Assembly: GCF_004403395.1 (NCBI RefSeq)
Contig: NZ_SOGN01000047.1
Coordinates: forward strand, 1-64,000
DNA: 64,000 nucleotides
Direction of reading: 5' to 3'
Origin: Cryobacterium cheniae
Lineage (GTDB): Bacteria; Actinomycetota; Actinomycetes; Actinomycetales; Microbacteriaceae
Both the position numbers and the translations under genes were made by a program. The first letter of the stretch is position 1; every line of letters begins with the position of its first letter. Below the pieces are notes generated by a model. That model made no database searches. It worked only from the letters and a program-made list of their open reading frames with translations, and was not told the DNA's origin. Of this stretch, positions 9,701 to 45,964 are shown in pieces.

Positions 9701-9781
9701 GCATAACTCCTGCAATTCTCCCGAAAACCGGCTCGAATGGCACAATTCCGCCCCGAATCCGAGAATTTGCAGGAGTTATGC
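9701..9781. repeat. Palindromic repeat, family A, solo copy
   Basis: Left arm GCATAACTCCTGCAATTCTC (9701-9720) and right arm 9761-9781 are complementary except for one extra T; the 40-base loop is unrelated to the other copies. The same arms recur at 43017-43109 and 44150-44244. This copy lies between divergent birA and accD, immediately upstream of the birA ribosome-binding site, a place where a terminator is not expected. Confidence 0.85.
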
Positions 9782-42171: not shown

Positions 42172-42981
42172 ATGCCCGCGCCCGCCGTCGTTCTGTTCGA
42201 CCTGGACGACACCCTGTTCGCCCATCGCGGCGCCGTGGCCGACGGCATCCGTGCGCACCTCGATTCACTGGGCGGCACCTTCGCCGACGCCGACCCCGGC
42301 GCTGCGCTGGCGCTCTGGGACGACTTGGAAGAGCGGCACTACCACGCCTACCTCGCCGGAAGTCTGGACTTCGCGGGGCAGCGTCGGGAGCGGGCCCGCG
42401 ACTTCGCGGCGGCGCACGGCGTCACTCTGACCGGGCCCGCGGCGGCTGCCTGGTTCGAGGCGTACTTCCGGCATTACCGGGCGAGCTGGCGCCTCCACCC
42501 GGATGCGCTGCCCTGCCTCGACGCCCTGGCCGTCGCCTTCCGTGGGGTGCGGATCGGGCTGATCACCAACGGTGAGTCGACGCCGCAGGGCCACAAGCTG
42601 GCGGACACCGGGCTCTCCGGGCGGGTGGAGCACGTGATCGCCTCCGGCAGCCTGGGTGTCGCCAAGCCGGACCCCCGCATCTTCCGGCACGCCTGCGCGG
42701 TGTTCGGGTCGGCCCCGGAGCAGACCGTCTACGTCGGCGACCGGCTGCGCACCGACGCGATCGGTGCCGCCGCGGCCGGGCTGACCGGGGTCTGGCTCGA
42801 CCGGACGGGTGCCGGGGCTGGAGCTGGAGCTGGAGCTGGAGCTGGAACTGGGGCTGGAACTGGAGCTGGGGCTGGAGCTGGAGCTGGGCCGGATGCTGCC
42901 GAGGCCGCCCGGCTCGGCGTGCTCCGGATCACCGGCCTCGCCGCCCTGCCCGCCGTCCTCACGGCGCGCGCCTTCTCCTAG
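42172..42981 (+). CDS. HAD-family hydrolase with an internal Gly-Ala repeat
   Basis: This 269-residue phosphatase-like protein has FDLDDTLFAHR (nucleophile Asp, motif I), GLITNGE (motif II), GVAKPDPRIF (motif III Lys) and YVGDRLRTD (motif IV). Helical cap residues lie at about 20-110. After motif IV, residues of about 213-240 are almost pure Gly-Ala with two Thr, encoded by a GGAGCT/GGGGCT hexamer array. The substrate is unknown; relatives act on phosphosugars or nucleotides. Confidence 0.82.
   Translation: MPAPAVVLFDLDDTLFAHRGAVADGIRAHLDSLGGTFADADPGAALALWDDLEERHYHAYLAGSLDFAGQRRERARDFAAAHGVTLTGPAAAAWFEAYFRHYRASWRLHPDALPCLDALAVAFRGVRIGLITNGESTPQGHKLADTGLSGRVEHVIASGSLGVAKPDPRIFRHACAVFGSAPEQTVYVGDRLRTDAIGAAAAGLTGVWLDRTGAGAGAGAGAGAGTGAGTGAGAGAGAGPDAAEAARLGVLRITGLAALPAVLTARAFS
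42811..42893. repeat. Hexamer repeat GGAGCT inside the HAD gene
   Basis: About thirteen imperfect GGAGCT/GGAACT/GGGGCT units encode the Gly-Ala tract. The period is a multiple of three, so copy-number change alters length without frameshift. Confidence 0.9.
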
Positions 42982-43016
42982 CCCCGGCCGACCCCACCCT
43001 CGCGCCTCTCTCCTGG

Positions 43017-43109
43017 GCATAACTCCTGCAAATTGACAACGCCACCTCGTCGGGGCCAGTCGTTACGGGGGCGGCCGGTGCCCCGCCGTGAAATTTGCAG
43101 GAGTTATGC
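43017..43109. repeat. Palindromic repeat, family A, left flank of the DUF559 gene
   Basis: Perfect 18-bp arms at 43017-43034 and 43092-43109 (GCATAACTCCTGCAAATT and its complement) enclose a 57-base loop containing its own CGGGGC/GCCCCG stem. It lies between convergent HAD and DUF559 genes. Confidence 0.9.
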
Positions 43110-43182
43110 ACGAAGTCGGCTCTTGCTCCCGTTGTCGGGTGGCGGGGTGGGCGGTCGCGGTGGGCGCCGAGTACGGCTGTGC

Positions 43183-44070
43183 TCAGGCGTGGGCGCTTCC
43201 GAAGTGGCAAAGGTTCACCAGGTTCCGGATGGCTTTGACCACGCCCGCAGGATCGAACATGATGTCCCGGTAGAGCACACGCAGGGACGGATAGCCGAGC
43301 TCAGCAAGCAATCGGTCCCGGGTACGGTCACGAATGTGGTCGCTCCAGCTCTTATGGAATTGGTGACTGTCCGCCTCGACAACGACGCACCCCTCGACGA
43401 GCAAGTCCACGCGCCCCACACGGTCAATGCGCACTTGGATGTCGCAACGCAGGCCGGCATCGAGGATCAGCTGCCGGAGGACCGTTTCCTGCCCCGCATC
43501 GGACCGCGCATCGATCCTGAATCGCAGGGCTCGGTACTTGGCCGGCACGTGCGCGAAAATATCGGGAACATCTGCTGAGCCGATCTGGCCCTCGTGCAAC
43601 GCCGTGTCGAGGGCGGCCAGTGCGAAATTGCGTGGCTGGCATTGGATGATCTGGGCCAGGGCATCCCGAGGCCCGACGCAGTACTCCGTGCCGTCTCCAG
43701 AGTCGAGCAGAGGCCCCCAATGCAGTTCGACGCCATCACGCCGGGCCTCCGCCAGGCGCACGAAACGGCTGTGAGGTGCGCGCAGCCGCGACCCTTCCCG
43801 CTCAACGTGGAGATGAGTGAACTGGGCGTCGAAGGCGAAGATCCCCAGTTCGTTTGCGGCCGATACGCAGGCCAGTCGACCACCGACGCAGACCGCTTCC
43901 ATCGTGTGGCGATCGGTCCCGGGCCGGGCGTAGTGATCGCGGCGCACCCGCAGCAGGGACCCGGAACGGACAGCGAGGGTGATCTGGGCTCCGGTCATTC
44001 CCGCGGAGATCAGATCATGGCGATGGACAATTCGTCTCGGACCGAAGTCCAGGCTCGTGAAGGGGGTCAT
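43183..44070 (-). CDS. AbiEi/DUF559-type protein with a Vsr-like endonuclease domain
   Basis: This is a 295-residue protein. The N-terminus (RRIVHRHDLISAGMTGAQIT to HYARPG) resembles the winged-helix AbiEi antitoxin domain. The C-terminus has a PD-(D/E)xK-like core: RVGRVDLLVEGC, VVVEADSHQFHKSW, then RDRTRDRLLAELGYPSLRVLY, as in DUF559/Vsr nucleases. No toxin partner such as AbiEii is adjacent. Base composition is visibly lower in GC than the neighbours, which suggests transfer. ATG 44070 has no Shine-Dalgarno sequence. Palindromes with identical arms flank it on both sides. Function is unknown. Confidence 0.7.
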   Translation of the reverse strand: MTPFTSLDFGPRRIVHRHDLISAGMTGAQITLAVRSGSLLRVRRDHYARPGTDRHTMEAVCVGGRLACVSAANELGIFAFDAQFTHLHVEREGSRLRAPHSRFVRLAEARRDGVELHWGPLLDSGDGTEYCVGPRDALAQIIQCQPRNFALAALDTALHEGQIGSADVPDIFAHVPAKYRALRFRIDARSDAGQETVLRQLILDAGLRCDIQVRIDRVGRVDLLVEGCVVVEADSHQFHKSWSDHIRDRTRDRLLAELGYPSLRVLYRDIMFDPAGVVKAIRNLVNLCHFGSAHA

Positions 44071-44149
44071 GCCGCGATCGTGACGGCACTCGATCGCCCT
44101 GCAGGCACCGTGCCGTGATCTGGGGAGAGCACCTCGCCGCACGTGGTTG

Positions 44150-44244
44150 TGCATAACTCCTGCAAATCGTGTTCGCGGCCATGCGAGTAGCCCGTGAATC
44201 CGGGCTTCGAGCAGTACATGCCAAGAATTTGCAGGAGTTATGCA
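44150..44244. repeat. Palindromic repeat, family A, right flank of the DUF559 gene
   Basis: Perfect 18-bp arms at 44150-44167 and 44227-44244 (TGCATAACTCCTGCAAAT and its complement) enclose a 59-base loop with an AGCCCG/CGGGCT stem. It lies upstream of the DUF559 gene and downstream of glpK. Confidence 0.9.
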
Positions 44245-44386
44245 CAGGGACAGCACGGTGAATGAGTGGGCTGGGAGGAGAGACCGGGAGTGACCCGGAA
44301 GGCCTGGGGAGGGAGTGCTCGGGGCACGGATACCGAGACCCGGCGGCCATGTTCGGCCGCCGGGCCTCGGTGGGGTGCGTCGCACC

Positions 44387-44433
44387 GCGCGGGGAGCACC
44401 GGTCGGGGAGCACCGGTGCGGTGCTCCCCGCGC
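44387..44433 (-). terminator. Hairpin downstream of glpK
   Basis: Perfect 14-bp stem, GCGCGGGGAGCACC (44387-44400) with its complement at 44420-44433. A second hairpin follows at 44332-44371. No U-tract is present. Confidence 0.6.
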
Positions 44434-44449
44434 GGTGAGCACCGGCGGG

Positions 44450-45964
44450 CTAGACCACGTCTGCGTCGACCCAGTCGAGGGACTTGGTGACGGCCTTCTT
44501 CCAGTTGCGCAGCAGACGGTCGCGCTCGGCGATGTCCATGCTCGGCTCCCAGCGGGCGTCTTCCTGCCAGTTGGACCGCAGCTCGCCGAGGTCGTTCCAG
44601 AAGCCGACCGCCAAGCCGGCCGCATAGGCCGCACCCAGGGCGGTCGTCTCCGCGACCACCGGGCGCACGACGGACACGCCGAGGATGTCGGCCTGGAACT
44701 GCATCAGCAGGTCGTTGGCCGCGGCCCCGCCGTCGACCTTGAGCTCGGTCAGCGGCACACCGGAGTCGGCGTTGACCGCGTCCAGCACTTCGCGGCTCTG
44801 GTACGCGATCGCCTCGAGCGCGGCACGGGCGATGTGGCCCTTGTTCACGTAACGGGTGAGGCCGACCAGGGCGCCACGGGCATCCGCACGCCAATAGGGC
44901 GCGAACAGGCCGGAGAAGGCCGGCACGAAGTAGGCGCCGCCGTTGTCTTCGACCGACAGGGCGAGCGGCTCGATCTCCTCAGCCGTCTTGATGATGCCCA
45001 GGTTGTCGCGCAGCCACTGCACGAGCGATCCGGTGACCGCGATGGAGCCCTCCAGGGCGTAGTGCGGTTCGGCGTCGCCGAGCTTGTAGCCCAGGGTGGT
45101 GAGCAGGCCGTTCTGGGAGTGCACGATCTCGGTGCCGGTGTTGAAGATCAGGAAGTTTCCGGTGCCGTAGGTGTTCTTGGCCTCGCCCTGGTCGAAGGCG
45201 GCCTGTCCGAACGTCGCCGCCTGCTGGTCGCCCAGGATGCCGGCGATCGGGGTCTCGCGCAGCAAGCTGTGGCCGCTGGCGACGCCGTAGACCTCGGAGG
45301 AGGAGCGGATCTCGGGCAGCATCGACTTCGGCACGTCGAAGGCGGCGAGGATCTCGTCGTCCCACTGCAGTGTTTCCAGGTCCATGAACAGGGTGCGGCT
45401 GGCGTTGGTGACGTCGGTCAGGTGCACGCCGTCCTCGAGGCCGCCGGTGAGGTTCCACAGCACCCAGGTGTCGGTGGTGCCGAACATCAGGTCACCGGCC
45501 TCGGCCTTCTCCCGGGCCCCCTCGACGTTCTCGAGGATCCAGACGATTTTCGTACCGGAGAAGTACGTCGCCAGCGGCAGGCCCACCCTGGCCTTGAAGC
45601 GTTCAACGCCTCCGTCGGCGGCGAGCCGGTCGACGATGGGCTGAGTGCGGGTGTCCTGCCAGACGATGGCGTTGTAGACAGGGATGCCGGTGTGGCGGTC
45701 CCAGACGACGGCGGTCTCGCGCTGGTTGGTGATGCCGACGGCCGCGATGTCGTGGCGGGTCAGGTTGGCCTTGGCCAGGGCCGAACCGATGACCTCACGG
45801 GTGTTGTTCCAGATTTCCATCGGGTCGTGTTCGACCCAGCCGGCGCGGGGGAAGATCTGCTCGTGCTCGAGCTGACCGGTCGAGATGATCGATCCGGACT
45901 TGTCGAAGATGATCGCACGGGTACTGGTGGTCCCCTGGTCGATTGCGATGACGAATTTTGCCAT
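44450..45964 (-). CDS. glpK: Glycerol kinase
   Basis: This 504-residue FGGY-family kinase phosphorylates glycerol to glycerol-3-[19 protein letters not shown] is the ATP loop, [15 protein letters not shown] and [16 protein letters not shown] are conserved substrate-side motifs, and [17 protein letters not shown] and [17 protein letters not shown] lie in the second domain. AGGAG precedes ATG 45964. No glpF or glpD accompanies it; it is divergent from the riboflavin operon. Confidence 0.95.

Follow-up and report, generated by a model that had tools for sequence, protein, structure and literature searches.

What holds a gene for a predicted nuclease between two palindromes with identical arms, and is the association a matter of function, of mobility or of chance? 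This question is raised by a locus in a 64-kb stretch of the Cryobacterium cheniae genome, the whole of which we call the window, in which a DUF559-family gene is enclosed in this way. Here, we compare the locus, its palindromes and its protein across the genus Cryobacterium and the wider phylum.

The locus and its predicted nuclease

Table 1. Positions in the window of the palindromes, the gene that they flank and the genes at the borders of the locus.
Feature	Position	Strand	Evidence
HAD-family hydrolase gene, one border of the conserved locus	42172..42981	+	name read off translation
A-type palindrome, 93 bp	43017..43109	.	18-bp arms (43017-43034/43092-43109), 100% match; ssDNA fold z = -5.6
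DUF559/MTES_1575 gene, 295 aa	43183..44070	-	ORF, Pfam, PADLOC
A-type palindrome, 93 bp	44151..44243	.	20-bp arms (44148-44167/44227-44246), 100% match; ssDNA fold z = -8.5
glpK-like glycerol kinase gene, other border of the conserved locus	44450..45964	-	name read off translation
Solo A-type palindrome, 81-bp class	9701..9781	.	arm search; ssDNA fold z = -5.8

A preliminary description of this DNA had reported perfect-armed palindromes on both sides of the gene, a solo palindrome elsewhere in the window and a lower GC content of the gene. All three observations are borne out (Table 1): the flanking arms, of 18 bp and 20 bp, match exactly, the solo element is present at 9701-9781, and the GC content is 0.643 in the gene against 0.692 in the window, a value equally low in 11 of 316 stretches of the same size. 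One flanking palindrome sits 3' of the nuclease gene and separates it from the convergent HAD-hydrolase gene; the other sits upstream, on the glpK side. The arm core occurs six times in the window at up to three mismatches, whereas 100 shuffles give 0.10 occurrences on average and never more than 2, and the 3.2-Mb draft genome contains 49 arm matches at up to two mismatches, against none for a reversed control pattern. These 49 matches pair into 24 palindromes, which are 93 bp (nine), 92 bp (nine) or 81 bp (six) long, and one extra arm. Hairpins of single-stranded DNA are stable for all three window palindromes (z from -5.6 to -8.5). In the neighboring HAD-hydrolase gene, the 3' end carries a run of GCTGGA-type hexamers (42817-42890) that codes for a Gly-Ala-rich repeat.

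Which kind of protein does the gene encode? Pfam DUF559 (PF04480) matches the window protein at 22.4 bits, above the cut-off of 20.6, and MTES_1575 matches it at 32 bits, under the cut-off of 38.2; a protein from clade B (defined below) scores 20.5 bits with PF04480, just under the cut-off. For the N-terminus, the AbiEi_4 family of Pfam gives 12.4 bits and does not reach its cut-off of 25, and the AbiEi match of PADLOC is weak (15.8 bits). The domain order proposed earlier, an AbiEi-like N-terminus followed by a PD-(D/E)xK domain, is upheld in its DUF559 part, which exceeds the cut-off, and is left with a weak, sub-threshold match in its AbiEi part. Residues D222, E232, D234 and H239, which we take to be the putative catalytic residues, are invariant in nine of nine clade-A proteins. 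Together, the window protein can be described as a predicted Vsr-like PD-(D/E)XK domain at the C-terminus with a possible winged helix at the N-terminus. Scanned against Pfam, the window protein and four of its relatives gave DUF559/MTES_1575 along with weak AbiEi-type or other matches, and no Y1 (HUH) transposase domain; among proteins of solved structure there was one weak match (3hrl, E 0.31). An MTES_1575 match is found in 65 of 149 sampled genomes of the phylum.

Inheritance of the gene and its arm types

How is the gene distributed, and does it move? We surveyed 57 Cryobacterium genomes for orthologs of the window protein. Clade A, at 65% identity or more to the window protein, comprises 22 genomes, the window's own counted, and clade B, at 49-59% identity, a further 14, while 21 of the 57 have neither clade intact. 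There is one ortholog per genome, except in G055, which has a clade-A gene and a 53% copy and thus one of each clade; G026 holds only a broken gene piece. Paralogs about 30% identical to the window protein are also present in the genus. Clade-A genes are flanked by GCATAACTCCTGCA arms or close variants, and the clade-B genes (8 of 14 covered) lie beside GGCTAACTCAGGA arms or close variants, an arm that retains the TAACTC of the A arm and differs on either side of it.

Both HAD and glpK genes accompany 18 of the 22 clade-A genes, glpK alone accompanies two, and neither is found at two. Of the clade-B genes, 11 of 14 adjoin glpK; for two the distance to it is about 4.4 kb, and the remaining one is on a contig without glpK. 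The two clade-A genes without HAD or glpK neighbors (L194, L202) are palindrome-flanked nonetheless, and their position suggests that the unit may have changed place there. We read 15 HAD-glpK intervals that lack an intact gene: neither an A nor a B arm is present in 12 of them, and three contain remnants, namely a shrunken A remnant in two and a pseudogene piece with one palindrome in the third. Some gene-less intervals (L327-L330) are filled by a different, GC-rich repeat (GGCACGCCGCTGCGCGGGA-like). Because the locus is common to most genomes and loss occurs in place, the gene seems to be mostly inherited vertically and sometimes lost where it stands, with few copies elsewhere and some relocation possible. 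The small mobile unit envisaged in the preliminary description is mostly abandoned on these counts, as 20 of 22 A genes and most B genes keep their glpK neighbor and the gene-less intervals, one with its pseudogene remnant, show loss; what survives of the idea is relocation, for two A genes and at least one B gene at other places. Had palindromes been kept at these gene borders irrespective of whether the gene is there, this would have pointed away from a gene-palindrome pair; instead, 12 of the 15 gene-less intervals are free of A and B arms and three keep remnants.

Is flanking by palindromes a rule of the family? We scored inverted repeats with a common arm on both sides of a gene and set the threshold at 40 or more. 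This was reached by 20 of 22 clade-A genes, by seven of the eight clade-B genes (of 14) that had loci, and by nine of 40 stand-alone genes sampled across the phylum. It was also reached by 21 of 40 other paralogs of the genus (10/20, and 11/20 in a second set). Beyond clades A and B the genus has 65 additional matches, the G026 pseudogene piece among them; the 40 scored paralogs come from these, some of the second set having been chosen as suspected type D, and the window genome's own two were covered besides. Among controls, the threshold was reached by two of 245 pseudo-gene positions taken from Cryobacterium loci (a DUF559 gene accounts for one of the two) and by none of 520 positions in phylum genomes. 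The two clade-A genes under the threshold (L193, L200) had scored 37 and 35 in the first flank test. Such a score is missing for 19 of 40 genus paralogs and for 31 of 40 phylum genes, with four loci incomplete and about four apparently mis-centred among these 31. Further arm types include CCGAATTCAGG, ATTCGACGGA, GGAGATTTTCGCGACACG, GCAGGATGC and ACAGCTGTGAGC, the last two partly one-sided.

The arm varies with the protein. Across 37 loci, which were chosen for having palindromes and come from the first flank test with its smaller control, arm similarity correlates with protein identity (Mantel r = 0.86, 0/2000 permutations). Arms agree at 16.4 of 20 bases where proteins are 60-75% identical and at 11.4 where they are 45-60% identical, against a random baseline of 11.1. 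We strongly infer that each enzyme would recognise its own arm type. In G152, a genome of another family, four palindromes carry the arm of one gene: a pair at the gene itself and two solo copies. None was found in 59 further genomes of its genus, and the reversed control pattern matched once in G152 and once in G240. Among the matches listed, palindromes are mostly from Cryobacterium, with a few from Lacisediminihabitans, Rhodoglobus and Microbacterium, and these matches also include 16-mers in unrelated taxa without a palindrome. The REP/RAYT-like arrangement suggested earlier is supported in that the gene usually stands between matching palindromes, solo copies are dispersed and the arm co-varies with the protein.

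Does copy number follow the resident gene as well? The median number of A-arm palindromes is 13.5 in genomes with an A gene (n = 22), 2 with a B gene (n = 14) and 1 with neither (n = 21; p = 3e-6), and B-arm palindromes are present in 10 of 14 B-gene genomes, five of 22 A-gene genomes and one of 21 others (p = 2e-6), where the p values ignore relatedness and the exact patterns miss variant arms. A palindromes persist without an A gene in G014 (15 copies) and G006 (8 copies). Where a C gene was seen, in three genomes, the copies of the C arm number 27, 21 and 20; the other 54 genomes have 0-8. The D arm is present in 14 copies in the window genome, two flanking ones included, with a second DUF559 gene between D palindromes. 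It also reaches 96 copies in G030, 108 in G027 and 64 in G039, where it lies beside a DUF559 gene, the flanks of the D gene being scored on both sides in G030 only and the G039 locus ending at a contig end. In addition, 118 copies in G029, 50 in G007 and 16 in G009 occur where no D gene was seen, and so many D copies without a visible gene argue against a strict link between gene and palindrome. An absence of copy-number correlation, which the preliminary description had held to speak against its proposal, is therefore not what we find: in types A, B and C, palindrome number follows the matching DUF559 gene, and type D shows clear exceptions.

Palindrome anatomy and orthologous sites

Measured from TAAC to GTTA, 134 of 167 distinct A elements are 86-87 bp long and 22 are 74-76 bp, none is 79 to 83 bp, and the other 11 fall at 66, 77, 78, 84, 85 (four elements), 88, 97 and 102 bp; B elements have an extra class of 96-98 bp (7/48), all these length data coming partly from searches restricted to 67-97 or 70-100 bp. 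In sequence the arms hardly vary, and the center is a weaker symmetric motif. The loops had been described as unrelated, which is true of the two inner spacers, neither conserved nor paired above expectation, and not of the weak symmetric core that the 92/93-bp elements have in common (approximately CCcCGnAATTnCGgGG). Palindromes that differ in arm type have similar motifs at their center (CCGnACCAGTGCGG, CCCGGAATTCCGGGG and others of this kind), which suggests a second binder that they have in common. Lengths that are fixed, and spaced by about one helical turn, around a sequence that is free suggest that the palindrome may be recognised double-stranded and in phase, the alternative being a branched single-strand fold. 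A full-length hairpin was considered and rejected, as the inner positions are not paired beyond expectation; for single strands, however, folding predictions give a branched structure that includes inner hairpins. Common descent could also contribute to the length classes, and the loops of C elements are related (0.69 identity against 0.52 when shuffled; 21 elements, 19 from G012 and two from G040).

The elements are extragenic, with one of 70 placed A elements within a predicted gene and seven more at locus edges. By a crude gene prediction, A solos lie between convergent genes in 28 of 69 cases, compared with 42 of 197 gaps of at least 120 bp, and between divergent genes in 11 of 69, compared with 61 of 197 such gaps. 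Known RNA families gave three sub-threshold matches, none on the palindromes. A terminator scan of 42900-44500 returned nothing and is uninformative here, because it was limited to loops of 3-8 bases and is blind to these long-looped palindromes. Near-identical palindromes occur in tandem, about 160-200 bp apart, at L081 (7621/7815), L367 (420/578) and G008:C1:2930056/2930223. Within 150-bp flanks in the window genome, which has no B gene, several A solos lie beside B-type pieces, some of them decayed (L002-L008). It is as if palindrome clusters built up at the same gaps.

What happens to a given site when the genome, or the enzyme, is a different one? For A elements, five sites of the window genome could be aligned (17 sites, 10 with complete flanks), with G009 and G039, which have A genes, and G030 and G007, which have B genes, as relatives. 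For C elements there were four (17 sites, 8 complete), L354 being too poorly aligned to count. One C element of G012 has no counterpart at the corresponding site in G020, G003 and G040. Two others are shared by G012 and G040: the first of these is lacking in G003, G020 and G015, the second in G020 and G003. Read without a tree, such differences would fit gain and loss alike. At the solo site 9701-9781, the loop is common to five genomes, and the B-gene relatives have B-like outer arms on both sides of it; one B-genome arm in this set (L349-L352) resembles an A/B intermediate. At one A site, A elements in A genomes face B elements in B genomes, and at another an A element in G039 corresponds to a B element in G030, with no element of either kind in G009 or G007. 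G030 retains an A element at two sites, decayed-looking in both. In this small set, palindromes at a given site seem to change along with the enzyme of their genome, which is the most surprising part of our data. No target-site duplication or exact junction was readable at the element-free sites, where flanks are too diverged.

Explanations and relation to known systems

What, then, joins the gene to the palindromes? Pairing, co-variation, dispersal, narrow length classes and presence/absence differences are read directly from the sequence. Gene and palindromes are probably a cognate pair, arranged like REP and RAYT and built on an unrelated enzyme. We infer binding, cutting and copying or dispersal as its likely activities. 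The N-terminal, possibly winged-helix part would most likely read the arm, with the protein probably a dimer that spans the two arms, and the Vsr-like PD-(D/E)XK domain would most likely nick or cut at the arm. Repair or strand transfer after the cut might then copy the palindrome of about 70-100 bp to new intergenic sites, and the same process might hold arms already in place to the type that the resident enzyme reads. The enzyme gene would be a mostly single-copy chromosomal gene and the palindromes its non-autonomous elements.

Alternatively, the protein could be a regulator with many operators, whose N-terminus binds the palindromes and controls its own gene and the neighbors, the solos forming a regulon and the nuclease domain acting elsewhere or being a remnant. 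AbiEi does bind inverted repeats of 11-23 bp at its own promoter (PMC3985639), one palindrome lies upstream of the nuclease gene, and the arms at 9701-9781, which differ with the enzyme around a kept loop, would fit selection for binding. However, the other palindrome is on the 3' side of the gene, solos are overrepresented between convergent genes and underrepresented between divergent ones, contrary to what operators would show, one arm type reaches 118 copies per genome and the putative nuclease residues are invariant in 9/9, so that we consider regulation unlikely. Still less probable is that the palindromes are sites useful to the host, in the nucleoid, in supercoiling or in replication and repair, with the protein as a dedicated factor and a spread that is slow and selected instead of selfish. 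Position is indeed kept across species at some sites, such as 9701-9781 in five genomes, the A, B and C arm types have a similar core motif (B and C by eye), and A elements look decayed at two sites in a B-gene relative; against this, gene loss is common (21/57 with neither clade intact), presence varies among species and arms differ between clades.

We give little credence to a composite transposon in which the gene and both palindromes move as a 1.2-kb unit. The glpK gene beside 20 of 22 A genes (HAD too at 18) and 11 of 14 B genes, the single ortholog in all genomes but G055, and gene-less intervals without an arm or with remnants all speak against this, despite the identical-arm palindromes on both sides, the lower GC content, the flanked L194 and L202 genes without HAD or glpK, and the B genes found about 4.4 kb from glpK (two) or on a contig without it (one). 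Least credible of all are recurrent bidirectional terminators that flank the gene by chance, the plain alternative in the preliminary description: stable hairpins of single-stranded DNA in 3/3 and the enrichment between convergent genes would suit them, but the arm type goes with the nuclease, and the fixed length and the unconserved, unpaired inner spacers do not fit.

A bolder extension of the cognate pair can be put forward tentatively. There may be a phylum-wide and so far unrecognised class of genome-shaping systems whose PD-(D/E)XK nucleases, in place of HUH transposases, recognise, copy and keep in step private, phased palindromes, such that when the enzyme changes both arms change where they stand and the loops are kept. 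DUF559 genes are common in the phylum and little studied, and they now have a candidate substrate. Since this substrate can often be read from the flanks of the gene, function can be tested pair by pair, with the palindromes of other clades as negative controls. If true, the REP/RAYT arrangement of enzyme plus palindrome arose more than once, on unrelated enzymes, which bears on the question of why such repeats stay associated with their enzymes.

Vsr acts at T:G mismatches, and the solitary Vsr/DUF559 endonucleases belong to the same domain family as the enzyme described here. The Caulobacter DUF559 protein VsrA is linked to the DNA damage response, and the accessible text of that report describes no palindrome partner of Vsr/DUF559 (PMC12907096). 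AbiEi, from type IV toxin-antitoxin systems, is a winged-helix protein that binds inverted repeats (PMC3985639); our protein resembles it in a weak N-terminal match and differs in its C-terminal nuclease domain and dispersed sites. Binding of inverted repeats by AbiEi and the tie of a DUF559 protein to DNA damage make both halves of the proposed protein plausible. MITEs are short non-autonomous elements with terminal inverted repeats (PMC3116915), as the palindromes here would be, at which a target-site duplication is unreadable in the diverged flanks. TIRtrons, in which TIRYT genes are flanked by long terminal inverted repeats, some in dispersed families (PMC3733652), similarly have inverted repeats around an enzyme gene, but their enzyme is a tyrosine transposase. 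In the part of the open-licence literature that was searched, as titles and abstract beginnings present it, we found no description of a DUF559 pairing with palindromes or inverted repeats or of Cryobacterium palindromes, and a Cryobacterium genome paper mentions, in its accessible text, only CRISPR (PMC7381226).

The closest likeness is to REPtrons, in which a single-copy enzyme gene lies beside cognate palindromes, with several co-evolving pairs per genome (PMC3116915, PMC8266576). As in REP/REPIN-RAYT systems, the gene described here is mostly single-copy and adjacent to or between its cognate palindromes, a genome may hold several enzyme-palindrome pairs, extragenic copies are dispersed as inverted pairs, and enzyme and palindrome co-evolve. 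A GTAG tag is typical of REPs, although REPs without it have been described (PMC3733652), and it is absent from the A-arm consensus. Unlike RAYT (TnpA-REP), an HUH tyrosine transposase, the enzyme is a DUF559/MTES_1575 PD-(D/E)XK protein, and unlike in REP/RAYT the elements have unpaired inner spacers and come in tight length classes separated by roughly one helical turn. The arrangement works like a REPtron but is none, because the enzyme is unrelated, and the enzyme-palindrome system looks like an unrecognised counterpart of REP/RAYT.
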